Assembly: GCA_027858995.1 (NCBI GenBank)
Contig: JAQIBP010000091.1
Span: 1-44,860, forward strand
Direction of reading: 5' to 3'
Source: Deltaproteobacteria bacterium
GTDB taxonomy: Bacteria; Desulfobacterota; Desulfobacteria; Desulfobacterales; Desulfobacteraceae
Length of the DNA stretch: 44,860 nt
Of the stretch, positions 2,956 through 28,610 are shown in pieces (position 1 is the stretch's first letter; each line of letters opens with the position of its first letter). Under the pieces are notes generated by a model, which saw only the letters and a list, made by a program, of their open reading frames with translations, had not been told where the DNA came from and made no database searches. Position numbers and translations under genes: made by a program.

Positions 2956-4682
2956 AACACAGCAGAGAATACTCCATACATGGGAGATCTTTCCTTCAGG
3001 CATCGCCAAAGAATAGTCCATCGTGGTTGATAGAAAATGAACCCCTTATTTTCTGGTTTATGACTATACTTTTTCTGGTACCCATCTGGTTTTCAAACTT
3101 TTTGCCCACCCAGGACGGTCCAGCCCATCTTTACAATGCTCATCTGCTTAAAAATTTTTTAACTGGTATTCCCAACGATGTCGTATCTGGGTTTTACGAG
3201 CTGAATACCAATCCCACCCCCACATGGTTTTTACACATCATTTTGACAGGACTTCAATTTTTCTTTTCTCCTTCAGTGGCTGAAAAATTGGTGGTAACGA
3301 TCCTTATTCTCTCTCTTCCCGCAGCTGCCCGCTTTGCTGTTGGAAAGATAGATCAGACCATGAAACCCCTTGCATGGCTCGCGTTTCCTATGACCTATAG
3401 TCTACTTTTTTATCACGGCTTCTATGGTATGTGCTTTTCCGTACCCTGCTTTTTATTTACTTTTGGAGCTGTCCTGGATTATTTGCGTACAGGCAGCTCC
3501 TATTCCCTTTTCCTAATAACTGTAGGAAGTTTGCTCTGTTATGTTATGCATATTATTGGATTGGGCCTGCTTGGCTTAGCTGTTGTAGTTCTTGGTATTG
3601 GGTGGGCACTCATGATTTGGCAAAATAATGTAACTATCCTTTGGGGCTTTGTAACAAGCCGCCTGATTCCCCTTGGTATGACTTTTTTGCCCGCACTCCT
3701 TTTAATGGTGCTTTTTCTCGGTGAAAAGCAGTCAGTATTGAAATCAGAGTTTGATCTGTCTCATCTTTTTTCCCGGGGCCAGAATCTGGGACTCTCTGGC
3801 AGTTTGTTTTCCATTATCTTTACAGGACCAGCTGCCCTTCTTTCCGTGGGAACAATATTTTCCCTGCTTTTATTCCTTCTTCTCGCGGGCATGCTGCGTG
3901 GTCGTCACCTGAAATTAGGTATGACACGAATCATGTTTGCCATTTTCCTACTGTTTTGCTTACTGCAACTTTTTTTGCCCCAACTATTTCTTGTTACACC
4001 CAATAACGGCATGATGGGAGGAGGGTTTATCAGCCAGAGAATCGCCCTGTTCATCACACCAGTTTTCATACTTTTCTTGGCAACCTGTTCCAACAGCATC
4101 AATTATTTTTTCAACCAGTTTCGGATTGTACTGTTTTTTACTGTTTTTATTCTATGTTTTCACAGCATAAGCATTTACCATTTCAATGGATATCTTAAGG
4201 AATATATTGCCTTTGGCCGCCATATCCAACCAGACACCCTTTTTATGCCCCTGCATTTTTTTCCAGAAGAGAAACTAACAATCCGGGGACCTTTGGGCAT
4301 AGCACTCCGATGGAGATTTGACCCGCTTGTCCATGCATCCAATCATATAGCCATGGAAACAGGAGCATTGAGCCTTGATAACTATGAGCCTTCCATGGGC
4401 TATTTTCCTCTCTTGTACAGAAATGATATGAATCCTGAAACCATTGGATATGTTGACTGTCGTCTGAGGAGTCTCTATGGAGACCGTCCCACGGTTTTTA
4501 AAAACCTCATAACTCATTATAAAGAAAAAGGATTTCCTGTGAAGTACGTCCTTGTCTGGCGCATGGCTGATGCTGGGCTATCAGAAGATCTTGCAATGGT
4601 GCTGGCAGACTCTTCAACCTTAATTGCAGAAAGCAGGCATGGACAGCTCTATCAAATAAATGGAGAAACGGCAGTGAAATGA
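2952..4682 (+). CDS. Large polytopic membrane protein, GT-C-like glycosyltransferase candidate
   Basis: About 576 residues with roughly eleven to thirteen hydrophobic helices and a soluble C-terminal tail of about 150 residues. Just after the first helix, a periplasmic-loop motif reads Thr-Gln-Asp-Gly-Pro-Ala-His-Leu-Tyr-Asn. This resembles the Asp-containing first loop of GT-C enzymes that use polyprenyl-phosphate sugars. A TTG at 2952 is chosen as start because GAGGA at 2941-2945 stands 6 bases upstream and the codon overlaps the HAD stop; a GTG at 2937 in the same frame is possible. As the last gene of the block it could be the transferase using the lipid-linked pentose. No database family was recognised with certainty. 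Confidence 0.6.
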   Translation: MKHSREYSIHGRSFLQASPKNSPSWLIENEPLIFWFMTILFLVPIWFSNFLPTQDGPAHLYNAHLLKNFLTGIPNDVVSGFYELNTNPTPTWFLHIILTGLQFFFSPSVAEKLVVTILILSLPAAARFAVGKIDQTMKPLAWLAFPMTYSLLFYHGFYGMCFSVPCFLFTFGAVLDYLRTGSSYSLFLITVGSLLCYVMHIIGLGLLGLAVVVLGIGWALMIWQNNVTILWGFVTSRLIPLGMTFLPALLLMVLFLGEKQSVLKSEFDLSHLFSRGQNLGLSGSLFSIIFTGPAALLSVGTIFSLLLFLLLAGMLRGRHLKLGMTRIMFAIFLLFCLLQLFLPQLFLVTPNNGMMGGGFISQRIALFITPVFILFLATCSNSINYFFNQFRIVLFFTVFILCFHSISIYHFNGYLKEYIAFGRHIQPDTLFMPLHFFPEEKLTIRGPLGIALRWRFDPLVHASNHIAMETGALSLDNYEPSMGYFPLLYRNDMNPETIGYVDCRLRSLYGDRPTVFKNLITHYKEKGFPVKYVLVWRMADAGLSEDLAMVLADSSTLIAESRHGQLYQINGETAVK

Positions 4683-6640: not shown

Positions 6641-8503
6641 ATGTGCGGCATAAGTGGCTTTGTTGGAGGGTTTACTAAAAATGATTTACAAACAATGAAT
6701 CAATCCATGGTTCATCGAGGCCCGGATGATTATGGCACCTACTTTAAGAATAATGTTGGTCTTGCTCATCGCAGGTTAAGCATTATTGATGTCGAGGGCG
6801 GACATCAGCCCATGTCTAATGAGAAAAATACAATATGGATTGTTTTTAATGGTGAAATTTATAATTTTCAGACTTTGCGAAAAGACCATCTTAAATCTTA
6901 TAGGTTTAAAACAAGGAGTGATACTGAGGTCATTCTCCATCTCTACGAAAAATATGGTGAAAAATGCATAGAATATCTTCGGGGAATGTTTGCATTCGCC
7001 ATCTGGGATGAAAATAAGCAAAAATTATTAATCGTCCGTGATCGGTTTGGTATAAAACCATTATATTACGCCCAAACCGGCAGAGGACTGATTTTTGCCT
7101 CTGAATTAAAGGCAATATTAGCAATCGATGCAGTACCGCGTAAGGTGGATAAGGAAGCGCTGAATTTATACTTATCTTTCAGGTATGTTCCTGGCTCCGG
7201 AACAATGATAGACAGCATCAAAAAACTGGAACCTGCACATTCTATGGTTTATCAGAATGGATGTTTGAAAATCAGCAAGTATTGGGACCTTAGCTTTGAC
7301 AAGGATACAGGCAAATCTGAAGAGTATTACAGCCAGAGGTTAACTGAATTATTAAAAGAATCAATAGATATCAGATTATTAAGTGAAGTTCCACTAGGAG
7401 CATATCTCTCAGGGGGGTTAGATTCCAGTTTTATGGTCGGACTGATGAGCCAGATCGTTCATGAGCCGATAAAAACATTTACAGCAGGGTTTGATGGCAG
7501 TTGGTATGATGAATCACCTCATGCGGAAATCATTGCAAAGGAGTTTAATACAGACCACCATCTTTTAAAAACAAAAGCAGATGATGTAACTATACTTGAG
7601 AAGGTAATCTGGCACCTTGATGAACCTTTGGCAGATGCCGCAACCATACCGACCTATCTTTTATCTCAACTAACAAAAAAAGCTGTCACCGTGATATTAA
7701 GTGGAGAAGGAGCAGATGAATTATTAGCAGGTTATGATAAATATAAATTTTTATTTTATGCGGGAAAATTTTCTCCTTCATTTTTCAACCCTTTCTTTAT
7801 GTTCATGCAAAATATATTCAAGGGAAATATTAAAATGGAGAGAGGATTTAATTTGTTGTGCTCAAAACAAAGAAATCAGATAAATTATTTAGATTTTGCC
7901 GCAGTTTTTACAAATCAAGAAAAACAACAATTGCTGGGACCGGAGTTAAAGGAACTGCAAGGCATGAATAAGGTGCCAGAGAGAATTATTAATAAATACT
8001 TGTCTTACAGTGAAAAGGGAGGAGATTTGTTGGACAGACTTCTGTATCTTGATATTAAAACCTGGTTACCCAATGATGTACTATTGAAAAATGATAAGAT
8101 GACTATGGCTCATTCACTGGAAGCCCGCGTACCATTTTTGGATCACAAATTTGCAGAATTTGCAATGACAATTCCTAACCGTCTAAAATTAAAATGGTTA
8201 ACGGAAAAGTATATCCTTCGACAATCAATGAAAGGGATTGTGCCAGACAATATTATTAACCGGAAAAAGCATGGTTTTACAGTCCCTGTTGCTAAATGGA
8301 TGCAGGATGGATTAAAGCAATATGTTGAGAAGCTCTTAAATACAGGCAGAATAACCAAGTTGGGGTATTGGAATAGATCCTATGTCGAGAGATTGCTCAA
8401 GCAGGATCTAAGTAATCAATTCTATAAGAGACAATTTTGGACAATAATTACCTTTGAGATATGGCATAGAATTTTTATTGAACAAGAAACTATAAATATA
8501 TAG
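6641..8503 (+). CDS. asnB: Asparagine synthase (glutamine-hydrolysing)-type amidotransferase
   Basis: The 620-residue product starts Met-Cys-Gly-Ile, placing the class II glutaminase nucleophile Cys2 at the N-terminus after Met removal. The glutaminase domain spans about residues 1-210 (His-Arg-Gly-Pro-Asp-Asp and Phe-Asn-Gly-Glu-Ile-Tyr-Asn visible). The synthetase domain carries the ATP pyrophosphatase motif Ser-Gly-Gly-Leu-Asp-Ser-Ser near residue 257 and Gly-Glu-Gly-Ala-Asp-Glu near 363. Genes of this kind are frequent in exopolysaccharide loci, including exosortase-A-associated ones, and may amidate uronic acids or other carboxyl groups. With a GDP-mannose dehydrogenase in the same locus, amidation of a uronic acid is a reasonable guess. 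The symbol describes the family rather than free asparagine synthesis. Confidence 0.85.
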   Translation: MCGISGFVGGFTKNDLQTMNQSMVHRGPDDYGTYFKNNVGLAHRRLSIIDVEGGHQPMSNEKNTIWIVFNGEIYNFQTLRKDHLKSYRFKTRSDTEVILHLYEKYGEKCIEYLRGMFAFAIWDENKQKLLIVRDRFGIKPLYYAQTGRGLIFASELKAILAIDAVPRKVDKEALNLYLSFRYVPGSGTMIDSIKKLEPAHSMVYQNGCLKISKYWDLSFDKDTGKSEEYYSQRLTELLKESIDIRLLSEVPLGAYLSGGLDSSFMVGLMSQIVHEPIKTFTAGFDGSWYDESPHAEIIAKEFNTDHHLLKTKADDVTILEKVIWHLDEPLADAATIPTYLLSQLTKKAVTVILSGEGADELLAGYDKYKFLFYAGKFSPSFFNPFFMFMQNIFKGNIKMERGFNLLCSKQRNQINYLDFAAVFTNQEKQQLLGPELKELQGMNKVPERIINKYLSYSEKGGDLLDRLLYLDIKTWLPNDVLLKNDKMTMAHSLEARVPFLDHKFAEFAMTIPNRLKLKWLTEKYILRQSMKGIVPDNIINRKKHGFTVPVAKWMQDGLKQYVEKLLNTGRITKLGYWNRSYVERLLKQDLSNQFYKRQFWTIITFEIWHRIFIEQETINI

Positions 8504-12470: not shown

Positions 12471-13526
12471 ATGGGCATAATTTTTTCAATTATTTTGTTA
12501 TTTGCAGTTATACATTTTTTGTATATTTTTATATGCATAATATTGCCTGAAGGTAAGGAAAATCCAGAAATTCAAGGAGAGAACTATTCGATAGAACATA
12601 TTATATGTTTCCATAATGAATCTAAATTTATAAAACAAAAATTGGAAAATTGTTATAGATTAAAGCATAAAAAGATTCATTTTACTTTTATCAATGATAA
12701 TTCTACCGATGACACATTGGATCTTTTACAAAAATATTCAAAAAATAAAAAAAATATAACTATAATTGATAACAAACAAAATATTGGGAAAAATCAATCT
12801 CAGATTAAGGCGGTAAATAAAAGCGAATCTGATCTGTTGCTATTTACAGATTCAAACGTTTTTCTTGAAGAGGATGCTATAAGCGAACTAGTAGGTTCTT
12901 TTAGTAGTAGTGTTGGTGGCCTTACCGGCAACGTAACAATTAAAACCGAGCAAAAGAAGGTAGAATTTTCCGGTAAATATTGGAATTTAGAGAAAAAAAT
13001 CAAACGGTTCCAATCTCTATTTGGCTCTGTGATTGGTTTTGATGGAGGGTTCTATTGTGTTAAAAGACAGTGTTATAACCTTAAAAGAGAGAATGAACTA
13101 AGTGACTTAGAGACTGCTTTTTTAATTTTTGAGCAACAAAAACAGGTTCTATATATCTCTAACGCAGTTGCATCTGAATTAGAACATCGTAATATAAAAA
13201 GTTCATTCAAGGCCAGAATTCGGGCTTCCAATAGAGTTTTCTGGAGCTTTAAAAGAATTTTTAAATATGCTAATAAACTCAATTACGGAGTTCTTTTTCA
13301 TTTTTTCTGTCACAAGCTTTCAAGATATCTTTTTGTTATTTTATTTGTAATGTTCTCTCCTTTAATGGTCATCCAGATAATTAAGGTATCACCATTGTTA
13401 TTGTTAGTTATATTTATACCAGTTGTTTTTAGAATTCTAAACGAATGTTTTGCATTATTTATAGGAGGGTTAATAGCTTTGAGTGGTAAAGAGTATATTA
13501 CTTGGTCAGAGAAAAAAGCAAAATAA
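12471..13526 (+). CDS. Membrane-anchored GT2 glycosyltransferase
   Basis: An N-terminal hydrophobic helix (residues 2-25) is followed by a GT-A domain starting His-Ile-Ile-Cys-Phe-His-Asn-Glu-Ser. It has Asn-Asp-Asn-Ser-Thr-Asp-Asp-Thr (~79-86), Thr-Asp-Ser-Asn (~124-127, DxD-like) and an acidic Leu-Ser-Asp-Leu-Glu segment (~212). An Arg-Ala-Ser-Asn-Arg-x-x-x-Ser-Phe stretch (~251) sits where processive enzymes carry QxxRW. Two or three C-terminal helices close the protein, which has 351 residues. The layout resembles ICA/HAS-like membrane GT2 enzymes. AAGGA stands upstream of the ATG. It may add a sugar to a lipid-linked acceptor or extend a chain; sequence alone does not decide. Confidence 0.75.
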   Translation: MGIIFSIILLFAVIHFLYIFICIILPEGKENPEIQGENYSIEHIICFHNESKFIKQKLENCYRLKHKKIHFTFINDNSTDDTLDLLQKYSKNKKNITIIDNKQNIGKNQSQIKAVNKSESDLLLFTDSNVFLEEDAISELVGSFSSSVGGLTGNVTIKTEQKKVEFSGKYWNLEKKIKRFQSLFGSVIGFDGGFYCVKRQCYNLKRENELSDLETAFLIFEQQKQVLYISNAVASELEHRNIKSSFKARIRASNRVFWSFKRIFKYANKLNYGVLFHFFCHKLSRYLFVILFVMFSPLMVIQIIKVSPLLLLVIFIPVVFRILNECFALFIGGLIALSGKEYITWSEKKAK

Positions 13527-13559: not shown

Positions 13560-14588
13560 GTGAGAGGATCCGGAATAGTTAAGAATATATTATTATATTC
13601 TGGTGTGATGAAAATTTTTCATAAATTTTCCATAAAAAATTGTGTTGCTATTTTACGATATCATTCAATTTGTAACCCTGAAGAGAGTTTTTATGCATTT
13701 CCATCTATTTGTATCAGGCCAGATGTTTTTGAAGATCAGATAAATTATTTATCTAAAAATTTTAATATTATCTCGCTGGATGTATTTATTGAAACCCTTA
13801 AAAACAAGCAGGATCTTCCTCACAAAGCACTTATTTTGACTTTTGATGATGGGTATGAAGATAATTATTATGCATATAAAATACTGAATAAATACAATGT
13901 TACAGGTACTTTTTATATAGCTGCAGAGTGTGTTGACAATTTTTCAACTCTCTGGTTGTTTGAAGTATTTTTTTTAATCAATAACACTTCAGCTGATTCT
14001 TTAAAGATAAATTTCAAAAACACTTCAGTTGAATTCCAATTAAAATCTCCAGATAATAAAAAAAAATGTATAAGAAAAATTGTAGAAATCATCAAATCAA
14101 ATGATCTTGCTACAAGAGAAATAATTAGAGAACAATTGCATCATTTACTAAAAGATGTGAATAACTTTCAGGCAATGAGTAAAAAAGTAATGCTTACCTG
14201 GGAACAGGTCAGAGAGATGAAGAATAATGGTATGACAATTGGCGGGCATACCATGACACATATTAACCTGCCAAACGCAAAGGCTGAGGATGCTCGCCAG
14301 GAAATTATTGATTGTAAAGAATTAATCGAAAATAAAATAGGGTCAAAAGTCAATCATTTTTCATATCCAAATGGTGGAAATTATGATTACTATAATGACT
14401 CAATAAAGCAAATGGTCATTGATGCAGGTTTTCTAACTTCAACAACATCTAATAATGGGATGGCTGACTTACTTAGTGATCCATTTGAGCTGAACAGGAT
14501 AAGAGTCACGTCAAATCTTGCTGAAATCATATATCAGATAAAAGTTGAACCATTTATGGATCGCCTGCAAGGAAAATTTAATTCATGA
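13560..14588 (+). CDS. Polysaccharide deacetylase (CE4/NodB homology)
   Basis: The 342-residue product carries the NodB motifs: Thr-Phe-Asp-Asp-Gly-Tyr (catalytic and metal Asp, ~residues 95-99), the metal-binding His-x3-His in Gly-Gly-His-Thr-Met-Thr-His, and a Phe-Ser-Tyr-Pro-Asn-Gly-Gly motif 3. An insert of about 70 residues lies between motifs 1 and 2. The start is a GTG preceded by an AGAGGAG purine run. The stop overlaps the next ATG as ATGA. No clear signal peptide is seen, so it may act on lipid-linked or nucleotide-activated sugars in the cytoplasm or at the membrane. CE4 enzymes are regular members of exosortase-A-type loci. Confidence 0.85.
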   Translation: MRGSGIVKNILLYSGVMKIFHKFSIKNCVAILRYHSICNPEESFYAFPSICIRPDVFEDQINYLSKNFNIISLDVFIETLKNKQDLPHKALILTFDDGYEDNYYAYKILNKYNVTGTFYIAAECVDNFSTLWLFEVFFLINNTSADSLKINFKNTSVEFQLKSPDNKKKCIRKIVEIIKSNDLATREIIREQLHHLLKDVNNFQAMSKKVMLTWEQVREMKNNGMTIGGHTMTHINLPNAKAEDARQEIIDCKELIENKIGSKVNHFSYPNGGNYDYYNDSIKQMVIDAGFLTSTTSNNGMADLLSDPFELNRIRVTSNLAEIIYQIKVEPFMDRLQGKFNS

Positions 14589-15637
14589 CCATCAGCATTA
14601 TTGAATCCGATGTCGAAGCTGATATCGACACTTTTCGTTCTCTTCTAAATAGAAATAGAGAGAAAACCGTAGATAATGACAGATTTAATTGGTTATATCT
14701 AAACAATCCCCATGGTAAAGCAAAAGTATGGTGTGCTGTTGATGAACAGTCTGGGAAGACAATCGCATTTACCTGCGCTCTACCTCGTTTAATGAAGATT
14801 AACGGTTCTGATCTGTTATGCTGGAATTGTGGTGATTTTTCAGTCGATAAGAAATTCAGAACCCTGGGGGTAGCGCTGAAATTAAGGAGGGCTGCAAAAA
14901 ATGATGTTGACCAGGGTGTTGTTAATTTTCTATATGCACATCCCAATAATAAAATGGAAGTAATTCATAAAAGAGTCGGACATTTTTGTATTGGTAAAAT
15001 GCAGAGATATGTCAAGCTGATCCGCGTTAATTCGTTGATCCAAAAAAAAATTGGAAGTAGAATTTTAACAGACTTTTTTAGTTTTTTTTTAAATCCAGCA
15101 TTATCAAGTTTTGATTTTTTCATGTTTAAAAAAGAAAAACAATTTCAAAAGGAATGGGTATCAGGTAAAAAATTTGATCAATCTTATGATGATCTGTTCA
15201 AAAAGGTATCACCAAATTATAAAATAATTGGTGATAGAAGTTCTAAATATTTGAACTGGAGATATCACAACAACCCCTTATATAAAACAAAAAGAATCAC
15301 AATACGTAAAAACAATGAACTTCTTGGTTTTATAGTTTTTTATGTTAAAAATGATATAGCTGTTTTTAAAGATATGCTGGTGATGCCCGATAAGCGAATA
15401 TTAAATTCAATAGTTGGATTCTGGATCAAAGAGTTACGGAAAAAGAAAATTAACCAGATTTCAGCAAATTTTATGGATAAAAATCCAATACTTGATTTTT
15501 TTAAAAATCATGGATTTTATTTTAGACCGGAAGAGGAATCTTCAGTATATGTGTATGCAAATAAAAACAATGAAAGCTATTCTCAATGGATTGATGGTGA
15601 TAACTGGTATATGACTGTCGGAGACAGAGATGTATAA
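14585..15637 (+). CDS. GNAT-like acyltransferase, exopolysaccharide-associated
   Basis: The 350-residue protein looks like a two-part GNAT or FemAB-like acyltransferase. The N-terminal half (about 1-150) has a GNAT-type core with Val-Asp-Lys-Lys-Phe-Arg-Thr-Leu-Gly-Val-Ala-Leu-Lys (~82-94), matching the acyl-CoA-binding R/Q-x-x-G-x-G/A loop only loosely. A second, similar fold may occupy about 200-340. It begins inside the deacetylase stop and lies 14 bases before the acyl carrier protein start. The position suggests it may move an acyl group made by the carrier protein and ligase downstream. The assignment to GNAT rather than FemAB is moderate. Confidence 0.6.
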   Translation: MTISIIESDVEADIDTFRSLLNRNREKTVDNDRFNWLYLNNPHGKAKVWCAVDEQSGKTIAFTCALPRLMKINGSDLLCWNCGDFSVDKKFRTLGVALKLRRAAKNDVDQGVVNFLYAHPNNKMEVIHKRVGHFCIGKMQRYVKLIRVNSLIQKKIGSRILTDFFSFFLNPALSSFDFFMFKKEKQFQKEWVSGKKFDQSYDDLFKKVSPNYKIIGDRSSKYLNWRYHNNPLYKTKRITIRKNNELLGFIVFYVKNDIAVFKDMLVMPDKRILNSIVGFWIKELRKKKINQISANFMDKNPILDFFKNHGFYFRPEEESSVYVYANKNNESYSQWIDGDNWYMTVGDRDV

Positions 15638-15651
15638 AAATGGAGGTATTT

Positions 15652-15894
15652 ATGTCAGCAATGCAAGAGATTAAAACTTTTTTTTTAAACAACAAATGTA
15701 TTGATACCAGTAACGATTTAGATGAATCAGACTCATTATTGGAAAACGGGATTATTGATTCAGTTGGGATGCTGGAATTAGTAGATTATCTTGAGGAAAA
15801 ATTTTCAATACAAATTGATGAGGATGATTTAATGCCGGAGAATTTTGACTCATTAACTGCGATAAATGATTATGTCAGCAGTAAAATCAAATAA
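15652..15894 (+). CDS. Acyl carrier protein
   Basis: This acidic 80-residue protein has the carrier-protein four-helix pattern and the phosphopantetheine attachment motif Gly-Ile-Ile-Asp-Ser with Ser37. The frame also has an ATG at 15640, but GGAGG at 15642-15646, 5 bases before the ATG at 15652, fixes the likely start. Together with the AMP-forming ligase two genes on, it resembles a discrete acyl or aminoacyl carrier system (compare DltA/DltC logic) more than the housekeeping fatty-acid ACP, which lies in fab operons. Its C-terminal codons overlap the start of the LarA-like gene. Confidence 0.9.
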   Translation: MSAMQEIKTFFLNNKCIDTSNDLDESDSLLENGIIDSVGMLELVDYLEEKFSIQIDEDDLMPENFDSLTAINDYVSSKIK

Positions 15895-17122
15895 GTTGAA
15901 ATCTTATCATATCCCCTGGGGTGCCTGGTATGGTGATGAATCTTTGAAGATTGATTTTCCGGTATCCTGGGAAGTTGATAAAATGCAGATTGTTGATGCT
16001 CCAGGGTTACAACAGGATAAAATTATAGATTTATTGAATAAGCCATATGGCAAGGGTAGATTAAAAGATTTAGTCAAAAATAAAAAGAAAATTGTCATTG
16101 CCGTTGAGGATATTACAAGGCCGGTTCATCTTGAATTAGTATTGTTGCAAATTGTCAATGACTTACTAAAAGTCGGCATTGAAAAGGAGCAAATCACATT
16201 CTTAATATGTAATGGTGCCCATGCACCAATGCTTAATTCCGACATTAGAAAAAAAATCGGTTTGGAAATATTAAAAAATTTCATTATACACAACCATAAT
16301 CCCTATGATAATCTATCAGATACAGGGATTATTCTTGGTAAAACTCCTGTCAGAGTGAACCGTTATTTCCATGAGGCAGATTTCAGAATCATTGTTGGAA
16401 GCATCATTCCCCACAGTTTTGCTGGTTTTAGTTCAGGTGCTAAACTTGTCTTGCCCGGTCTGGCGGATATTGCAACCCTTGAAAGAAGTCATAAATATGT
16501 GATGATGGGGTTTCGAGGAGGAGTTAATGATGTAGAAACCAATAAATTCAGATCGGAAATAGAAGATGTGGTCTCTAAAATTGGCATAGACTTTTTTATA
16601 GGTGTAGTCCCAAACTCCAAGAGAGAACCAGCTGGTGTTTTTGCTGGTGATTTGATTAAAGCGCATAGAGAAGGTGTCAGCTTTGCCAGAAAAATATTTC
16701 GCACTTATGTTGAAAATCAATCTGATGTAGCAGTTCTTAATGCCTACCCAAAGGATTCTGAATTACTGCAGGCCGATTCAGCGTTAACACCTTTAAAAAC
16801 TATCCCCACTGAAATTGTCGGAGAAAAAGGGGTGTATATCATATGCACGAAATGTTCCAACGGTTTTGGATATCATTCTCTGTTTGGTCCTGGAATGCGA
16901 TTGACAAGAAAACCAATTAAAAAAGGTTTCCTAAAAGGAAGAGATTTAATCATCTTCTCACCTAATGTAAATCAGGCCGAGTTTAAAATGTTATACTGGG
17001 AAGGGTACTATTTTGCTGACACATGGGAATCAGTTCTATCTTATTTAAAAGAAAAATATCCAGCACAATGTAAAATTTCAATTTATCCTAACGCTCCCTT
17101 ACAACTACTGGAAGGTATTTAA
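15866..17122 (+). CDS. LarA-type nickel-dependent racemase family protein
   Basis: The 418-residue product belongs to the lactate racemase (LarA/DUF2088) family. It has Glu-Asp-Ile-Thr-Arg-Pro (~80), Asn-Gly-Ala-His-Ala-Pro (His119) and the signature I-P-H-S-F-A-G-F-S-S-G-A-K-x-V-L-P-G. In Lactiplantibacillus LarA the nickel-pincer cofactor is held by Lys184 and His200, with His108 and His174 in catalysis. Here His183, Lys193 and His209 keep exactly those spacings (10 and 26 residues). An active nickel-pincer enzyme is therefore likely, though the substrate need not be lactate. The start is the ATG at 15866 or 15872, inside the ACP gene. No larB, larC or larE is in the window. Confidence 0.85.
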   Translation: MIMSAVKSNKLKSYHIPWGAWYGDESLKIDFPVSWEVDKMQIVDAPGLQQDKIIDLLNKPYGKGRLKDLVKNKKKIVIAVEDITRPVHLELVLLQIVNDLLKVGIEKEQITFLICNGAHAPMLNSDIRKKIGLEILKNFIIHNHNPYDNLSDTGIILGKTPVRVNRYFHEADFRIIVGSIIPHSFAGFSSGAKLVLPGLADIATLERSHKYVMMGFRGGVNDVETNKFRSEIEDVVSKIGIDFFIGVVPNSKREPAGVFAGDLIKAHREGVSFARKIFRTYVENQSDVAVLNAYPKDSELLQADSALTPLKTIPTEIVGEKGVYIICTKCSNGFGYHSLFGPGMRLTRKPIKKGFLKGRDLIIFSPNVNQAEFKMLYWEGYYFADTWESVLSYLKEKYPAQCKISIYPNAPLQLLEGI

Positions 17123-18663
17123 TGATTCATCATTTTCTGGAGAATAGTGCTGATCGCTATCCTGATAAAGAAGCTGTAGTTCATGGTAATAACAGATATT
17201 CTTATATTGAAATTGAAAATCAGTCAAATCGTCTCGCTAACTGGCTTATTGATATTGGCATCTCAAAGGGTGATCGAGTGGCAATACTCTTAAGAAATTC
17301 ATTTGAATATATAATAACTTATTATGCAATATTAAAAACAGGAGCAATTGCAGTCCCATTAAACACCGGTCTTGACGTAAAAGAAGTATCACAGACACTT
17401 GAAGACTGCTCTCCTGAAATATTGGTTTCAGAAAAATACTTTAATAAAATTATTCAAAATATTTTTAAACACGATTCTAACTTATGCAAGTTGCTATCAA
17501 TATCTGATGTCTTGGAAACTAAGGAAGATATTGGTAAAACAGAGGTAATGTTATTTTCTGATATTTTTAAAAAATATTCAACCAAAAGGCCCCATATCAA
17601 ATTAATTGACCTTGATATTGCATCAATAATTTATACATCCGGCAGTACTGGAAAACCAAAAGGAGTAGTACTAAGTCATCTTAATATAGTAACTAACACA
17701 CGTTCAATTGTTGAATATCTTAAATTAGAAAAGCATGATCGTTGTATGGCTATCTTACCATTTTATTATGTATACGGTAAAACTCTTTTGAATATTCATT
17801 TTTCAGTATCCGGCACAGTAGTGATTGATAACAGATTTACATTTCCCAATGCTGTGCTTAAAACGATGATAGAAGAAAAGGTTACCGGTTTTTCCGGGGT
17901 CCCGTCAACTTTTTCGATTTTAATGAATCGTTCTTCGATTGGAAAAATGGAGTTTCCGGATTTAAGATATATTGCACAAGCTGGTGGTCATATGCCGGGT
18001 GAAATAAAGGAAAGATTAATAAATAAGTTCTCAAACAAAGAAATATATATAATGTATGGAGCCACAGAAGCCTCTGCGAGGTTGGCATATCTTAAACCTG
18101 AAATGTTATCAAAGAAACTGAACTCATTTGGTAAGGCTATTCCCAATGTTGAAATGAAGATTATTACCCAAAAAGGTAATGATGCAGGAGTTAATAAAGA
18201 AGGTGAAATTGTTGCCAGAGGCTCCAATATAATGAACAATTATTGGAATGCACCGGAAGAGACAAAAAAAGTTCTTAAAAACGGGTGGTACTATACTGGA
18301 GACCTTGGAATAATGGATGAAGAGGGATATTTTTTTGTCACCGGCAGAAAAAGAGACATGATTAAAGTAGGAATTTATAAAGTAAGTGCCAATGAGATTG
18401 AAGAAACTCTTTATAAATATCCTGGAGTAACTGAAGCAGCAGTAATTGGTATCCCTGATGATAATCTGGGTGAAGCTGTTCAAGCCTATATTGTAACTTC
18501 AGAGGATGTCAATATAACATCTGATGATATAATCAATTACTGTTCTGAAAATTTATCTTCGCACAAAATACCAAAACAGATAGAGTTTATTAAAGCTTTA
18601 CCTAAAAACGAATCCGGTAAAATTTTAAAACGTGAATTATCAAAAAATAATTTTTATAATTAA
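17122..18663 (+). CDS. AMP-forming acyl-CoA/acyl-carrier ligase
   Basis: The 513-residue enzyme belongs to the ANL superfamily. It shows the ATP-binding loop Tyr-Thr-Ser-Gly-Ser-Thr-Gly-Lys-Pro-Lys-Gly (~171-181), Tyr-Gly-Ala-Thr-Glu-Ala (~312), Tyr-Thr-Gly-Asp-Leu (~391), the hinge region Gly-Arg-Lys-Arg-Asp-Met, and a C-terminal Gly-Lys-Ile-Leu-Lys-Arg that includes the catalytic Lys. It should adenylate a carboxylic acid and pass it to CoA or a carrier thiol. Its ATG overlaps the LarA-like stop by one base, and the ACP is just upstream. This suggests that the racemised acid is the substrate loaded onto the ACP. An equivalent ligase is known in exosortase-A-associated loci. Confidence 0.85.
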   Translation: MIHHFLENSADRYPDKEAVVHGNNRYSYIEIENQSNRLANWLIDIGISKGDRVAILLRNSFEYIITYYAILKTGAIAVPLNTGLDVKEVSQTLEDCSPEILVSEKYFNKIIQNIFKHDSNLCKLLSISDVLETKEDIGKTEVMLFSDIFKKYSTKRPHIKLIDLDIASIIYTSGSTGKPKGVVLSHLNIVTNTRSIVEYLKLEKHDRCMAILPFYYVYGKTLLNIHFSVSGTVVIDNRFTFPNAVLKTMIEEKVTGFSGVPSTFSILMNRSSIGKMEFPDLRYIAQAGGHMPGEIKERLINKFSNKEIYIMYGATEASARLAYLKPEMLSKKLNSFGKAIPNVEMKIITQKGNDAGVNKEGEIVARGSNIMNNYWNAPEETKKVLKNGWYYTGDLGIMDEEGYFFVTGRKRDMIKVGIYKVSANEIEETLYKYPGVTEAAVIGIPDDNLGEAVQAYIVTSEDVNITSDDIINYCSENLSSHKIPKQIEFIKALPKNESGKILKRELSKNNFYN

Positions 18664-21383: not shown

Positions 21384-22670
21384 ATGTCAAAGACAGCATT
21401 AATTTGGTTATTTATCTTTTTCAGTGGGCTAACGACTTCATTCTTAAAAGGGCCATTCATTGCATTACTCACATATATATTTACCTATTATACTCAATTC
21501 AATTGGGCAAAACACTTACACTACAGATGGTCATTATATGCAGGACTTTCATTTTTAGTTGTTTTTTTTTGTTATAAATTATCTAAATCAGACCAAATAT
21601 CAAATGGGCCTCTGTCTAATTTTAAGTGGTTGTTGTTTATTGTAATCAACATGCTATTAGTAACCCCATTTGCAGCAAATCCCATTGCCAATACCGATGC
21701 AATCATTGGATTTTGTAAAATTGTGATCTTATATTATTTAATTGCCATGACTATCCATACAAAGCTTCATTATAGAATGTTTATTTGGTTTCAAATATGG
21801 GGCAACTATTTATTGGGATATCTTTCATACACGGAAGGTGAATTCTCAGGAGGTAGACTCGAAAATATTGGTGCACCAGGCATTAAGGAGAGTAATCTTT
21901 TAGCACTTCATTTTCTATTGATCCTTCCGTTTCTTGGTATGAAGATATTGCGTGGAAATAAATGGGAGAGAATTGCATCAATAATTACATCAGTTTTTGT
22001 TGTGAATGCTATCATACTTTGCAATAGCAGGGGTGCATATTTATCTATGGCTCTAATGTGCGTTTTTGCATTGATAATGTTTGGTTCTAAATTTCGGCTA
22101 AAGATTATTATTGGCATTTGTATTGGCGGGCTATTATTTTTCCAATTAACTGACAACAAATTTTGGGATAGAATGTCAATGTCTGAGATAAAGACCACTA
22201 ACGAGGATGGCTCCGCAATGGGGAGAATGAAATCCTGGAATGGTGCGATAGATATGATCTTTGATTTTCCTTTTGGCAAAGGGGGTGGTGGTTGGGAAGA
22301 ATACAGTCCACGATATATTCCTGACATTGTCTATGCACATGGTGGTCAAAAAAGATCTGTTCACAACACCTATTTAATGATGGCAACTGATTGGGGAATT
22401 CAGGGTTTAATTTTATTTTTATTTTTTTTATCAGGCTCATTGTTTTGTCTGTATCGTATACGTTTAAAGGCAAATCAAAGCCCGGATGATTTTTATTATA
22501 TTGAAAGTACGGCAATGTTTATAGCGATAGCAGGGTTTCTTATTGGATCATTTTTTTTAAATAGAATCTATGCTGAATCTTTATATTGGTATTGTGCACT
22601 TGCTGCAGCGCTTAGCAATATACAAAACAGAGAAATTTCACAAATGAACTCAGTGCCTTCAGATGAATAA
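21384..22670 (+). CDS. O-antigen ligase/polymerase-like (Wzy_C) membrane protein
   Basis: The 428-residue protein has about ten hydrophobic helices and a large periplasmic loop around residues 255-320 that includes Arg-Met-x-Ser-Trp, Gly-Lys-Gly-Gly-Gly-Gly-Trp and Ser-Val-His-Asn-Thr-Tyr-Leu. The His-Asn-Thr-Tyr motif is the hallmark of Wzy_C/WaaL/PglL-type enzymes. N-terminal features fit the putative O-glycosylation ligase of exosortase-A loci. It could polymerise repeat units or ligate glycan to protein. The 21220-21383 gap ahead has no gene I can support, and no strong ribosome site precedes the ATG. Polymerase versus ligase cannot be told from the sequence. Confidence 0.8.
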   Translation: MSKTALIWLFIFFSGLTTSFLKGPFIALLTYIFTYYTQFNWAKHLHYRWSLYAGLSFLVVFFCYKLSKSDQISNGPLSNFKWLLFIVINMLLVTPFAANPIANTDAIIGFCKIVILYYLIAMTIHTKLHYRMFIWFQIWGNYLLGYLSYTEGEFSGGRLENIGAPGIKESNLLALHFLLILPFLGMKILRGNKWERIASIITSVFVVNAIILCNSRGAYLSMALMCVFALIMFGSKFRLKIIIGICIGGLLFFQLTDNKFWDRMSMSEIKTTNEDGSAMGRMKSWNGAIDMIFDFPFGKGGGGWEEYSPRYIPDIVYAHGGQKRSVHNTYLMMATDWGIQGLILFLFFLSGSLFCLYRIRLKANQSPDDFYYIESTAMFIAIAGFLIGSFFLNRIYAESLYWYCALAAALSNIQNREISQMNSVPSDE

Positions 22671-23970: not shown

Positions 23971-25455
23971 ATGAAATTAAAAAAAGAGATGGGTATAGCT
24001 ACAATCGCAAATTGGTCAACAACAGTTGTTATGTATATTATTGCTTTTTTTTCAACTCCATATATTGTTCATACGTTTGGTAATGTTCAATATGGCATAT
24101 GGTCACTCGCCATGTCATTAACAGCTTCATTTGGAATGATTGAACTTGGTGTTTCAACTACACTGATAAAGTATTTTTCAGACTATTCTGAAAAAAAGGA
24201 TACAACTTCAGCAAACGCTCTTTTAAGCACAGGCTTTTTTACTTATATAGTTTTGTTTTTTGTTCTATTGATGATAATGCTTATCGTGATATGGAAAGTT
24301 GAATACCTCTTTAATATACCAGATCATCTGATTAGAGAAACTAAAATATTGTTTTTATTAGTTACAGTCGCTTTTGGACTCAATTTGCTTGGTAATACAT
24401 TCCTCGCTGTTATTATGAGTTTGAGGAAATTTGTTATAAAAAATCAAATAATTATTGGTATTTCAATAGTTAGAGTCCTTGGTATTGTATTTGTTTTGTA
24501 TGCAGGTTTTGGTTTGATTGTTGCTGGTGTAGTTGTCCTTTTAATAGACATTTTAAGAAATATTATTTTTTTTATATATGCTTTAAAGTTATTCCCTTCT
24601 ACACATATTTCCCTTAAACTTATTAATTTGCCTTTTTTTAAGAATTTTTTCTCTTTTACCTTTTTTAATTTTCTTAGGAAAATAGCAGTGAAGATGCTTG
24701 AAAGAGCTGATTTAATCTTAGTCGGTATTTTTTTTGATATGCAGACAGTTGCAATTTATTCAATTGCAGAATCACTTGTCAGGTATGCAAGAATGTTTCC
24801 TAATGGGATATTAAATATAATATTACCATTCTCAAGTAAGTTGAATGCGCAACAGCAAAAGAAAGATTTAATGAAAATAGCTTTTTTTATTCCTAAATAC
24901 ACCATCTCTTTTTTTCTGGGCATAATATTTCTTTTTATCTTTTTTGGAACTCAGTTTATTGAATTATGGCTGGGCAATGGATATGAACAAGCCTATCTAA
25001 TAACAATTGTTTTGTTGATTGCCAAAGCAATTTATATGAGCCAGAGTGTTATTGTTCACTTATTAGTGGGAATGGGATATAATAAATTCTTTGGAATAAT
25101 AGGAATAGTGGAAGCATTACTGAAAATTATTATAAGTATTATATTTTTAAAAATATTTGGTGTACTGGGTATAGCATATGGATCTTTAGTTGTTTTTTTT
25201 ATTATAACCATGATTATAATCCCATACTATGTCATGGATATAATTGGAATCAATAAATTTAAATATTATACAGAAGCTATTTTTATTCCTATGCTGTTAT
25301 GTTTTATTCTATATTTTTGTAATTCTTTTATAGAAATAAGAAGTTTTTTATGGATTCCAGTTTTAGTGTTAGAATATTGCCTGCTATTTTATCTTTTTGT
25401 ATGGAAAGAAGTGCGATTTAAAAATAAAAAGTTAGTTTTTGATTTTTCTTTTTAA
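23971..25455 (+). CDS. Wzx-like polysaccharide flippase (MOP superfamily)
   Basis: The 494-residue protein is almost wholly hydrophobic, with about 12-14 helices and the N-terminal pattern of lipopolysaccharide/polysaccharide biosynthesis transporters (Thr-Ile-Ala-Asn-Trp-Ser-Thr, Pro-Tyr-Ile-Val-His-Thr-Phe-Gly, then Tyr-Gly-Ile-Trp-Ser-Leu). It would move the undecaprenyl-pyrophosphate-linked repeat unit across the inner membrane for polymerisation by the Wzy-like protein. It fits a Wzx/Wzy route rather than a synthase route. The 124-base gap before it shows no feature I can support. Confidence 0.85.
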   Translation: MKLKKEMGIATIANWSTTVVMYIIAFFSTPYIVHTFGNVQYGIWSLAMSLTASFGMIELGVSTTLIKYFSDYSEKKDTTSANALLSTGFFTYIVLFFVLLMIMLIVIWKVEYLFNIPDHLIRETKILFLLVTVAFGLNLLGNTFLAVIMSLRKFVIKNQIIIGISIVRVLGIVFVLYAGFGLIVAGVVVLLIDILRNIIFFIYALKLFPSTHISLKLINLPFFKNFFSFTFFNFLRKIAVKMLERADLILVGIFFDMQTVAIYSIAESLVRYARMFPNGILNIILPFSSKLNAQQQKKDLMKIAFFIPKYTISFFLGIIFLFIFFGTQFIELWLGNGYEQAYLITIVLLIAKAIYMSQSVIVHLLVGMGYNKFFGIIGIVEALLKIIISIIFLKIFGVLGIAYGSLVVFFIITMIIIPYYVMDIIGINKFKYYTEAIFIPMLLCFILYFCNSFIEIRSFLWIPVLVLEYCLLFYLFVWKEVRFKNKKLVFDFSF

Positions 25456-25514: not shown

Positions 25515-26378
25515 ATGAATATAAAGAAAGAACACAGTAAGGCTGTTGATGAAATTTTAAAATATTTTAAAAAAAATCCTTCTGTTTTTAATGTTAAGAA
25601 CGTTGAACAAATTTCCATAAAAATAGTGTTTTCGGATTTAAGAAAAAGATTTACAGAATTTTATAGAATAAGAGTAGATAACTACTCAATCCTTACTCAA
25701 ACAAATAATCACGTTTATTATTGGGTCAGGATTGTAAAAAGTAAACCTGGTGAAATTCTACTTGATGCATTAGAAAAACAGTTTAAAATAATGCAGGAAC
25801 TGTATGGTTTTTTTGACAATAGAAAAAATAATCATTACCAGTCCTGCTGCAAACCCATTGCACTTTTGCCTGAATATAATGCTTTGATTTCAAGGGAATG
25901 CAATGGCATTTTATTCAATAAGTATCTTCAAAGACAGATACCAGTATTAAATAAAAAAAATATTTGTGTGCATTTTTATAATTGCGGAGTATGGCTTAAA
26001 TTATTTCATGAATTTTATAAAGACAATTCAATCACACAATCTGAAATGGAGAAATATCTTTTAAAATTTCAGGATATATTTAAACGTGACCCTGAAAAAC
26101 ACATGAGATATATTACAAACTGTCATAATGATTATAGTCCACGAAATATTTTTGTATCAGAAAATTCAGTTGAAGTGATTGATTTTGTTGGTGTTGAAAA
26201 AGGATTTCCTGAACAGGACATCAACTTTTTTTGTAATTATATATATAAAGCCAGATTTAATTTCCTTTATCCCTTGAGAGTGAAAAAAATGATGATTAAG
26301 GCTTTTCATAGTGGATATGATGATGGTCAAAGTTCTATTGAAGAACATAAATACAAAACGAAATCTTGTTGTCAATAA
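25515..26378 (+). CDS. APH/Kdo-kinase-like small-molecule phosphotransferase
   Basis: The 287-residue product has a protein-kinase-like fold as in aminoglycoside phosphotransferases. The catalytic loop reads Cys-His-Asn-Asp-Tyr-Ser-Pro-Arg-Asn-Ile (~202-211; HxDxxxxN pattern with Asn in the second place), followed by Val-Ile-Asp-Phe (~222), the metal-binding Asp. No glycine-rich loop is evident, which is normal for the family. It is only 12 bases before the heparinase-family gene. Related kinases phosphorylate sugars or lipid-linked saccharides. A sugar kinase role in the polysaccharide locus is more plausible than drug resistance, but the substrate is unknown. Confidence 0.65.
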   Translation: MNIKKEHSKAVDEILKYFKKNPSVFNVKNVEQISIKIVFSDLRKRFTEFYRIRVDNYSILTQTNNHVYYWVRIVKSKPGEILLDALEKQFKIMQELYGFFDNRKNNHYQSCCKPIALLPEYNALISRECNGILFNKYLQRQIPVLNKKNICVHFYNCGVWLKLFHEFYKDNSITQSEMEKYLLKFQDIFKRDPEKHMRYITNCHNDYSPRNIFVSENSVEVIDFVGVEKGFPEQDINFFCNYIYKARFNFLYPLRVKKMMIKAFHSGYDDGQSSIEEHKYKTKSCCQ

Positions 26379-26390
26379 ATTAGGATAAAG

Positions 26391-28610
26391 ATGATCCAGC
26401 ATAAAATTAATAAGCTGTTATCAATGGGAAAAGATGAACTTTTTTTTAGAGTAAAAGAATCAGTTATTCAACAAGTGGAGTATTCTCTTCATAAATTGGG
26501 CAAAGATCAAGTGTCAAACAAAAAATTTGAAACTAAAGTTGTTCAAAATCATTCAACTAAGCCATTCAACACCTTTTTATTAAAAGAATTTTTCAATGGA
26601 AATCGGGATATATTTTTTACAGAACTTTACGATAAAAAAGATCGTGTTTATGAATTTAAAAAATATTGTGATACTGATAAATGGATAGTAGAAGCAAAAG
26701 ATATTCTGGAAGGGAAAATAACTCTTTTAGGAAAAAAACTTAATTTGCCGGTTGATCAAGGATGGCATGTTGACCCTTTAAATAAAGTGAAATGGGCTCA
26801 AATTTTTTTTTCAAAAGTAAGTAATAGTGCCAACACTAAATCATGTGATATCAAATATATTTGGGAAATAAATCGCCACCAATACCTGATATCTTTAGGT
26901 AAAGCATATTGGCTGACAGGTGATGAAAAATATTCAGAAAGGGTTTTTGCTACAATATCCGGCTGGATCTCCGAAAATCCATATAATAGTGGAGTTAACT
27001 GGACAAGTTCTCTAGAACTTGCAGTCAGAACCATCTCATGGATTTGGGCATATTTTCTTTGTCAAGGTTCAAAATATCTGACTGCTCCATTCCATCAAAT
27101 ATTTGTTAGATCAGTTTATGAGCAGGCAAAACACATTGAGAGTCATTTGTCCTATTATTCCAGTCCTTATAATCATCTCATTGGTGAGGCTGCAGCTCTT
27201 CATATAATTGGCACTTTATTTTCGCAACTGAAGCAGGCAGAAAAATGGGAATCATTGGGATGGAGTATTCTGGAACAAAATATTGATAAACAGTTTCACC
27301 CTGATGGTTTTTGTGTTGAACAAGCTTCTTTTTATCACCATTTTACACTCGGCTTTTATCTTCAGTCAGTTTTGCTTCGAAAAATGAACAGTAAAAATGT
27401 TGCTGAAAAAGTTTTAAAAAGAGTTGAAAAAGCTCTTGAGTTTTCTATGTTTATGACAAAGCCTGATGGCACCTTACCTATGGTGGGCGATATTGATAAT
27501 GCAAGATCTTTATATTTTAGTCCATTACACGCCTGGAATTTTAAGGGTTATCTTGGAATAGGGGCTGTGCTTTATAACCGCTCTGATTTCAAAAAACAGT
27601 GCAATAACTCTTTGGAAGAAATTTTATGGTTATTCAGTGATTCAGAGATTGACAAATATACTTTATTAAATGAGAAGCAGCCAAATGCTATCTCAAAGAT
27701 CTTTCAAAAAAGCGGATATTGTATAAGCCGGGATTCATGGGATCATGACTCAAATTATTTATGTTTTGATTGTGGTGAAATAGCTGATGGCCTTAGTGAT
27801 AAAGCAATACCATCAGCAGCACATGGTCATGCAGACGGACTCTCTTTTGACTTGTCAGCTTATGGAAAATCTTATATAATTGACGCCGGTTTTTATACTT
27901 ATTTTGGTGACTTGGACTGGCACAAACATTTCAGGCATGAAGAGGCCCATAATACTTTATTGATCGAAAATTATCGACAGGCTGAATATTGTGGTCGGTT
28001 GACATGGCAGAAAGTTAAATCTCCTGAACTGCTTCAATGCGAACACACTGAAAAATATGATTATTTTGCCGGCAGGATTCAATTTAATACTGATGTAAGC
28101 CATAAGCGACAGATTGTATATTTAAAAGATCAATGTTGGATGTTCAATGATACGATCACAACTGATAATAAAGATACAAAAGTAGATACTTTTATTAATT
28201 TTGCTCCTGGAGTAGAAATCAAAATAGACAAAATACAAAAGCAAATCACAGCATCAATAGGGGAAGAGGGAATTATACTACAATACTTTAATGATTCTGA
28301 AATTCTGGTTACAAAAGGAGGAAGATCCCCTTCAGATGGATGGGTTGCTTCTGGCTATGGTATTAAAAAACCTGGATGCCATATACAGTTCAGGTGGAAT
28401 ACTGCTGGGAAAAGATGTATTTTTCCATTTCTTATTATTCCATGTAAAAAAAATAAGGGATTTCTATGTAAAAAGTATGAGTTGAATACGAAATCTTCGA
28501 ACATCTTTAAAAGTGAGTTTTTAATAAACAAAAATAATATTAAAATTATAATTGATGAAGAATCTAAAATCAGCCTAATTCATGATAGCGTAAATTATCA
28601 ATTTGATTAG
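26391..28610 (+). CDS. Heparinase II/III-family polysaccharide lyase
   Basis: A 739-residue protein with an N-terminal alpha/alpha toroid (about 110-400) containing Tyr-Asn-His-Leu-Ile-Gly-Glu-Ala-Ala (~263). The heparinase II/III beta-sandwich (about 440-700) carries Ala-His-Gly-His-Ala-Asp-Gly-Leu-Ser-Phe (~478), His-Phe-Arg-His-Glu-Glu-Ala-His-Asn-Thr and Asp-Ala-Gly. These Asn, His and Tyr residues are the expected catalytic set. No signal peptide is obvious, since it begins Met-Ile-Gln-His-Lys. Family members cleave uronate-containing chains such as heparin or alginate, which agrees with the mannuronate signal from algD. In biosynthetic loci such proteins may trim or edit the polymer. 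AGGA precedes the ATG. Confidence 0.85.
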   Translation: MIQHKINKLLSMGKDELFFRVKESVIQQVEYSLHKLGKDQVSNKKFETKVVQNHSTKPFNTFLLKEFFNGNRDIFFTELYDKKDRVYEFKKYCDTDKWIVEAKDILEGKITLLGKKLNLPVDQGWHVDPLNKVKWAQIFFSKVSNSANTKSCDIKYIWEINRHQYLISLGKAYWLTGDEKYSERVFATISGWISENPYNSGVNWTSSLELAVRTISWIWAYFLCQGSKYLTAPFHQIFVRSVYEQAKHIESHLSYYSSPYNHLIGEAAALHIIGTLFSQLKQAEKWESLGWSILEQNIDKQFHPDGFCVEQASFYHHFTLGFYLQSVLLRKMNSKNVAEKVLKRVEKALEFSMFMTKPDGTLPMVGDIDNARSLYFSPLHAWNFKGYLGIGAVLYNRSDFKKQCNNSLEEILWLFSDSEIDKYTLLNEKQPNAISKIFQKSGYCISRDSWDHDSNYLCFDCGEIADGLSDKAIPSAAHGHADGLSFDLSAYGKSYIIDAGFYTYFGDLDWHKHFRHEEAHNTLLIENYRQAEYCGRLTWQKVKSPELLQCEHTEKYDYFAGRIQFNTDVSHKRQIVYLKDQCWMFNDTITTDNKDTKVDTFINFAPGVEIKIDKIQKQITASIGEEGIILQYFNDSEILVTKGGRSPSDGWVASGYGIKKPGCHIQFRWNTAGKRCIFPFLIIPCKKNKGFLCKKYELNTKSSNIFKSEFLINKNNIKIIIDEESKISLIHDSVNYQFD

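Follow-up and report, generated by a model that had tools for sequence, protein, structure and literature searches.

A nickel-pincer racemase homolog is coupled to a conserved carrier-protein acylation unit in a bacterial polysaccharide gene cluster

Polysaccharide loci of the exosortase-A (XrtA)/PEP-CTERM type are the closest described relatives of the gene unit analyzed here, which lies in a 44,860-nucleotide stretch of a Deltaproteobacteria bacterium genome (contig JAQIBP010000091.1; we call the whole stretch the window). The unit shares with such loci the order polysaccharide deacetylase, GNAT acyltransferase, acyl carrier protein (ACP) and AMP-forming acyl ligase, as in genome G265, in L123 and, with a second GNAT inserted, in L122. 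In the XrtA loci, however, the ligase is of the TIGR03098 type and is followed by a pyridoxal phosphate (PLP) decarboxylase (TIGR03099), whereas the ligases of the window and of a more distant genome, G095 (523.5 bits), stay below the 592-bit TIGR03098 cut-off, and the window has instead a homolog of LarA, from the nickel-pincer 2-hydroxyacid racemase/epimerase superfamily, between ACP and ligase. This coupling of a nickel-pincer racemase homolog with a carrier-protein acylation unit is real and conserved and, as far as we searched, undescribed. The initial annotation of this DNA knew of no described system joining the two, in agreement with our limited search of the open-licence literature, which returned no described unit that joins LarA with carrier-protein acylation or with the exosortase ACP and ligase. 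Term searches of main texts found no mention of ligase, decarboxylase, acyl or carrier in the founding PEP-CTERM paper (PMC1569441), or of polysaccharide, acyl carrier or acyl-CoA in PMC7583248 and PMC11770544 (the genomic-context supplement of PMC7583248 lay outside the search); separately, one paper, PMC6311696, on iron regulation in Clostridioides difficile, contains all three of the terms acyl carrier protein, lactate racemase and polysaccharide biosynthesis. With this unit the nickel-pincer cofactor gains a likely role in the building of cell-surface polymers, beyond small-acid metabolism, and the locus offers a handle on the role of ACP, AMP ligase and GNAT in exosortase-type polysaccharide loci.

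Other known systems resemble the unit in part. Nod factor synthesis by NodA, NodB, NodC and NodF involves deacetylation of GlcNAc followed by ACP-dependent N-acylation; it differs in its fatty acyl group and in having no AMP ligase and no racemase, so the likeness is one of logic only, and the window proteins match NodB and NodC weakly, far below cut-off. The tetronate of Vibrio cholerae O1 is a chiral 2-hydroxy acid, 2,4-dihydroxybutyrate, whose gene set includes an ACP (RfbK/WbeK) and, to our knowledge, no LarA. We liken this system to the window unit by description, not by sequence, and it has no GNAT of the window kind. According to excerpts of PMC3441752, tetronate acylates the amino group of perosamine through a pathway for which wbeL, whose product has a putative ATP-binding domain, is predicted to be required; thus hydroxy acids on sugar amines exist. 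The same acid, 2,4-dihydroxybutyrate, is listed among the substrates of known LarA homologs in PMC11770544. In butirosin synthesis, as outlined in part of PMC7857480, BtrK, an enzyme of the PLP decarboxylase fold class that also occurs in sister loci of our unit, acts on an acyl group bound to the carrier BtrI, but this group is an amino acid, the product is an antibiotic and no nickel enzyme takes part. A role in carbohydrate metabolism has been proposed, in the available portion of a recent LarA paper (PMC12611868), for another subfamily, in which one catalytic histidine is missing.

The genes of the window unit (Table 1) are tightly packed: the deacetylase and GNAT genes overlap by 4 bases, the ACP and LarA genes by 23 bases with the LarA start at 15872, and the LarA and ligase genes have one base in common. 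The initial annotation had described the four genes at 14585-18663 as overlapping or nearly touching, with an intact ACP serine and an intact AMP-ligase signature. Coordinates and Pfam matches confirm the arrangement, and both motifs are present: the attachment serine of the ACP is Ser41 in GIIDSVG, invariant across four aligned ACPs, and the ligase keeps YTSGSTGKPKG as well as the C-terminal ESGKILK lysine, read directly in the sequence. To these four genes we add the deacetylase, which that annotation had left out of the unit. The GNAT has a predicted fold similar to that of tandem N-myristoyltransferase (NMT)/Eis enzymes, with two GNAT repeats matched along the whole chain, and this model fits N-acyl transfer; its sole Pfam match is to N-myristoyltransferase PF01233, at 21.6 bits (cut-off 25). 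A GD-x-D motif followed by exactly one residue to the chain end is found in 8 of 17 printed GNAT chains, including those of the window, G587 (described below), G095 and G265. The scanned surroundings of the unit form a polysaccharide cluster, with an AsnB-type amidotransferase, family 2 glycosyltransferases, an O-antigen-ligase-like protein, a flippase and a heparinase.

The unit is conserved in a genome of another family in the same order, G587, which consists of one contig of 6.9 Mb. In a class sample of 389 genomes, 12 (own included) contain a GNAT match at E≤1e-12, and G587 scores 399 bits. Its deacetylase, GNAT, ACP, LarA and ligase genes are arranged as in the window, with identities of 53, 51, 53, 60 and 63%, respectively, and the ACP and LarA genes again overlap by 23 bases. 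The identical gene order makes a chance arrangement very unlikely, and, because G587 is a single contig, it is also very unlikely that the arrangement in the window arose from faulty assembly. Further partners are shared between the two clusters (O-antigen-ligase-like protein 49%, flippase 45%, APH kinase-like protein 49%, heparinase 51%). The G587 cluster passes the cut-offs for the XrtA deacetylase TIGR03006, glycosyltransferase TIGR03013, FemAB protein TIGR03019 and, narrowly, chain-length protein TIGR03007 (281.7 vs 278.9), and for the general exosortase TIGR02602. We term this locus XrtA-type because these four XrtA models and the general exosortase model pass. The LarC of G587 is encoded elsewhere on the chromosome.

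Conservation of LarA beside ACP and ligase was one of the checks that the initial annotation had set beforehand, and it is seen in G587 and, more loosely, in G095. Another was that larB, larC and larE be present. In the window genome, at 172 contigs and 97.1% completeness, we found one LarC (449 bits), one LarE (295.8 bits) and one LarB (299.8 bits), each over its cut-off and each on another contig, indicating that the nickel-pincer cofactor can probably be made. A phylum sample of 395 genomes gave GNAT matches at E≤1e-3 in 43 (own included), the top ones in other genomes being G095 (148.5 bits) and G265 (141.8 bits). In G095, ACP, ligase, larC, larE, larB, GNAT, deacetylase and LarA lie on one strand within 18.3 kb: ACP and ligase are followed by three other genes, larC, larE, larB, a DUF362 protein, GNAT, a glycosyltransferase-like gene, deacetylase and LarA, and in the run from larC to GNAT neither overlaps nor gaps exceed 43 bases. 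LarC, LarE and LarB of G095 exceed their NCBIfam cut-offs. This genome's only LarC match, and its only LarA match at E≤1e-25, are both in the cluster, so that the cofactor pathway there looks dedicated to polysaccharide. A second copy of the arrangement was not found in the family and order of G095 (LarA in none of 4 other genomes at 1e-30, GNAT in none of 5 at 1e-12), and the LarA closest to that of G095, in G120, has no recognized sugar cluster around it and lies 1.6 kb from a contig end.

We surveyed 35 GNAT neighborhoods of other genomes (37 loci), scoring the module genes at thresholds of our own choosing; the sources were 17 loci, 11 of the 42 other genomes of the phylum GNAT search and 6 of the 11 of the class GNAT search (two for G473), and the stretches measured 3.8 to 35 kb, several of them ending at contig ends. 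GNAT and ligase occur together in 11 of the 35 neighborhoods, 9 of which also have an ACP match. LarA is found in two of these 11 (G095 and G587) and the PLP decarboxylase in four (L111, L122, L123 and L189); none of the 11 has both. One further neighborhood (L124) has GNAT, ACP and decarboxylase without ligase, and the other 23 have GNAT alone or GNAT with ACP, except for one in which no module gene exceeded the thresholds. With only six informative loci, this mutual exclusion is a hint and not a statistic. The decarboxylase gene stands behind the ligase (behind the ACP in L124), whereas LarA of the window and G587 stands between ACP and ligase, and the exchange is therefore not a same-slot swap. 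In G265, for example, deacetylase, GNAT, ACP and ligase are followed by an exosortase-A PLP decarboxylase (TIGR03099, 521 bits, cut-off 478), and no LarA was found within the 20 kb examined. That a like ACP and ligase are accompanied here by a racemase homolog and there by a decarboxylase suggests attachment of small tailored acids, either amino- or hydroxy-, to sugars. Two minor features of these neighborhoods were also seen: in L122 (10001-12376) the ACP lies between two tandem-GNAT genes, the second of which lacks the conserved C-terminal motif, and in three genomes proteins with a similar F-x-H-x-SVG stretch, noted by eye, are encoded close to ACP, ligase and GNAT (L109:9188-10015, L120:3041-3982 and L125:9096-9929; the one tested by Pfam gave no match).

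The LarA homolog itself shares with its superfamily the Lar_N domain, both catalytic histidines, Arg75, Lys184 and His200, and differs from it by the loss of Lys298 and by subfamily scores below cut-off. The initial annotation had placed His183, Lys193 and His209 (418-residue numbering) at the nickel-pincer positions; they indeed correspond to LarA His174, Lys184 and His200. Asp72, Arg75 and His108 are likewise present, and all cofactor and catalytic residues are kept in both the window and the G587 protein (residue roles in LarA as given in the available parts of PMC11770544 and PMC11851776). With phmmer, the window protein matches the malate racemase Mar2 (6d6z) at 5e-39. Its best NCBIfam matches are malate racemase models, the top one being NF052593 at 244.6 bits against a cut-off of 500, and its score falls short for each of the LarA subfamily models in NCBIfam that it matched (lactate, malate LarAH5/6, LarAH10 and others).

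On balance we lean toward the view that the window unit serves an exosortase-type exopolysaccharide locus as a dedicated module for acyl decoration, in which LarA sets C2 of a 2-hydroxy acid. The deacetylase would free the amine of an N-acetylated sugar, and the AMP ligase would activate a 2-hydroxy acid and attach it to the ACP through the phosphopantetheine arm. Using the nickel-pincer cofactor that LarB, LarC and LarE produce, LarA would equilibrate or invert the hydroxyl at C2 and thereby provide the isomer that is needed. The NMT/Eis-fold GNAT would take the hydroxyacyl group off the ACP and place it on the sugar amine. LarA might act on the free acid before loading, which is possible though far from assured, or on the ACP-bound acyl group after loading, which we can propose just as tentatively. 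Every one of these chemical steps is one that we infer from what was observed: the genes, their domains, the predicted GNAT fold, the G587 gene order, the G095 larCEB linkage and the cofactor genes. More broadly, the unit probably helps attach acids of set handedness to a surface polymer. The chiral hydroxyacyl decoration proposed in the initial annotation thus stands in part: larBCE, the conserved arrangement and a GNAT fold that fits N-acyl transfer agree with it, but the active site is LarA-like except at Lys298.

Several observations weigh against this module. The C-terminal GD-x-D motif is missing from 5 of the 17 GNAT chains. The window ligase scores 401.7 bits with TIGR03098, below cut-off, and it could load coenzyme A rather than ACP. 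Five of the 11 ligase neighborhoods (L120, L125, L132, L187 and L190) have neither LarA nor decarboxylase. G587 is below cut-off for the XrtA exosortase TIGR03109 (147 vs 208), for TIGR03027 (142 vs 180) and for TIGR03097 (139 vs 188), and a Pfam scan detected an exosortase in none of 24 window proteins, the rest of the window genome not having been searched for one. LarA of G095 shows only about 30% identity, is encoded 7.6 kb past the GNAT gene and carries Val in place of Gln295. The window genome contains two further LarA homologs, and its larBCE genes are therefore not specific to the operon. Neither ACP nor GNAT lies in the 1.5 kb flanks of the LarAs most closely related to the window protein. 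The substrates of all proteins of the unit are putative, as is action of the deacetylase in the cytoplasm. Finally, the carboxylate-binding Lys298 is replaced by Ser in the window LarA, with Gln295 kept.

This last point, absent from the initial annotation, bears directly on the substrate. In solved LarA structures the substrate carboxylate is held by Arg, both catalytic His, Gln295 and Lys298, according to part of PMC11851776. In a gap-free alignment, LLQADSAL of the window protein lies opposite the Q-x-x-K segment of these structures, and the G587 protein has Ala at the Lys298 column, again with Gln295 kept. We compared these proteins with a LarA set obtained from 98 matches in the fetched loci (complete frames of at least 330 residues), which gave 70 distinct proteins, or 71 with G587. 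Gln occupies position 295 in 37 of the 71, and 35 of these 37 have Lys298, the exceptions being the window (Ser) and G587 (Ala). Most proteins outside the Gln type lack the Q-x-x-K segment, with Ile at the 295 column in 31 of the 70, and in all 31 to 34 of the 70 lack this segment or align otherwise. Lys298 is thus not a universal LarA feature, because about half of the 70 are without Gln/Lys there. The two LarAs sited between ACP and ligase have therefore both lost the Lys298 contact with cofactor and catalytic residues intact, a pattern that would fit an altered substrate and that may exclude free lactate-type acids.

One explanation, which we put forward tentatively, is that LarA isomerizes the hydroxyacyl group while it is held as a thioester on the ACP, as BtrK decarboxylates glutamyl-BtrI. 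A thioester has no free carboxylate and so would not need Lys298, which would explain the loss of this lysine in the window and in G587 when all 35 other Gln295-type LarAs have it. The placement of the LarA gene directly behind the ACP gene, with the 23-base overlap, points the same way, as does the PLP decarboxylase behind ACP and ligase in some related loci, since BtrK of that fold uses a carrier-bound amino acid (PMC7857480, in the part available). Yet the other carboxylate holders named in the accessible text of PMC11851776 (Arg75, both catalytic His and Gln295) are retained, the Lys298 segment is absent or different in the 31 to 34 homologs counted above, and the G095 LarA has Lys at the 298 column. 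It is also conceivable, with the same reserve, that a nickel-pincer enzyme working on an ACP-tethered 2-hydroxyacyl group is the nickel counterpart of the PLP decarboxylase of the sister loci and gives polymer acids of set handedness. We know of no nickel-pincer nucleotide (NPN) enzyme that uses a thioester or carrier-bound substrate; if this reading were true, the window protein would be the first with a carrier-bound substrate known to us.

Alternatively, LarA may be a metabolic feeder that makes or removes an isomer of a free acid such as malate or glycerate, for example to let an L- or D-acid of the cell into the pathway for use by ligase and ACP, and the polymer would still be decorated; we regard this as possible but doubtful. 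Its best NCBIfam matches, the malate racemase models, favor such a role although they are below cut-off, and known LarA homologs use free 2-hydroxy acids, as PMC11770544 reports. Support also comes from G402, where a NeuB-type synthase (TIGR03569, 320 bits, cut-off 400) is followed by a LarA of about 30% identity and then by GNAT and a nearby D-2-hydroxyacid-dehydrogenase-like protein (NF041369, 160 bits, cut-off 400). The loss of Lys298 in both operon LarAs speaks against a feeder.

The acceptor may also differ from that of the favored module: the acyl group could be passed to an exosortase-system protein or lipid, or form an O-ester on the polymer, instead of reaching a sugar amine. NMT, among the closest fold matches of the GNAT, acylates proteins, the ACP has weak matches to ornithine-lipid ACP models, and the G587 locus includes an exosortase, which is a protein sorter. 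We nevertheless consider such acceptors rather unlikely, because GNATs mostly form amides and because a deacetylase match of at least 80 bits is present in 6 of the 11 GNAT and ligase neighborhoods, with the deacetylase adjoining the GNAT in five loci (window, G587, G265, L122 and L123).

It is very improbable that LarA is a passenger, a catabolic racemase in the cluster by chance, and we reject this explanation on the G587 operon (equal place and overlap, 60% identity, intact cofactor and catalytic residues) and on the G095 cluster with its larCEB genes, even though the window LarA groups with five LarAs (99/98 support) whose 1.5 kb flanks have no sugar-cluster genes, the operon is absent from nearly all sampled relatives, and G190 has a LarA-ligase pair outside any recognized sugar cluster. 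A role as uronic-acid sugar epimerase, an idea raised by the gene at 18685, which from its sequence we take to encode a UDP-glucose dehydrogenase, was set aside by reasoning only: in a pyranuronate the C5 oxygen beside the carboxyl lies in the ring.

A LarA match at E≤1e-3 occurs in 42 of 58 relatives searched, and one at E≤1e-45 in 55 of the 395 phylum genomes (own included). Among 29 phylum loci compared with 11 window genes, only the window has GNAT or ACP within 1.5 kb of LarA. We also compared 87 LarA loci (duplicates included, flanks of at most 1.5 kb, the G095 locus not among them) with the genes of four clusters (window, G095, G265 and G402) at E≤1e-8, and only the window and G402 places have sugar-cluster neighbors. 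In the tree of the 70 LarAs, the window, G095 and G402 proteins occupy separate positions, so that LarA was maybe recruited to sugar clusters more than once, tentatively in view of the long branches. The G402 cluster also has a PIG-L deacetylase and an ATP-grasp protein, and is perhaps another hydroxyacyl-sugar system. An AMP ligase stands beside LarA on the opposite strand in G076 and G178 and on the same strand in G190; the G190 pair indicates that LarA-ligase adjacency alone proves little. A pattern search of genome contigs with the window LarA alone gave 17 matching stretches and no relatives.

Table 1. Positions of the unit, of its neighbors in the window and of LarA-containing loci in other genomes (scores in bits).
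Feature	Position	Strand	Evidence
Polysaccharide deacetylase, first gene of the conserved five-gene unit	13560..14588	+	PF01522 81.6 (cut-off 23.1)
Tandem-GNAT acyltransferase, NMT/Eis fold, proposed hydroxyacyl transferase	14585..15637	+	350 aa
ACP	15640..15894	+	84 aa; PF00550 23.7 (cut-off 20.8); intact phosphopantetheine serine
LarA homolog (nickel-pincer 2-hydroxyacid racemase/epimerase superfamily)	15872..17122, alternative start 15866	+	Lar_N PF09861 150 (cut-off 23.3)
AMP-forming acyl ligase, relative of exosortase-A ligase TIGR03098	17122..18663	+	PF00501 275; PF13193 68
AsnB-type amidotransferase	6641..8503	+	PF00733 343; XrtA amidotransferase TIGR03108 578, below cut-off of 817
Family 2 glycosyltransferase, PgaC-like by best match	12471..13526	+	PF00535 68.7; TIGR03937 82, far below cut-off
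O-antigen-ligase-like membrane protein (Wzy_C)	21384..22670	+	PF04932 75.9; exosortase-A-associated ligase TIGR03097 112, below 188
Polysaccharide flippase	23971..25455	+	PF01943 40.5
Kinase-like (APH) protein and heparinase II/III protein	25515..28610	+	PF01636 25.8; PF16889 125, PF07940 86
IS21-type element (IstB-like and integrase proteins), behind glycosyltransferases	31210-33410	-	Pfam
G095 larC/larE/larB run with DUF362 protein and GNAT in polysaccharide cluster	L109:5915-14285, L110:290-10198
G402 nonulosonic-acid-like cluster with LarA and GNAT	L170:6225-10216
G190 LarA and AMP ligase, outside recognized sugar cluster	L076: LarA 1489-2730, AMP ligase 2951-4204	both -

Elsewhere in the window, the frames at 2937-4682 (581 residues) and 34888-35913 (341 residues) have no Pfam match at 0.001. 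In G019, LarE adjoins LarA.

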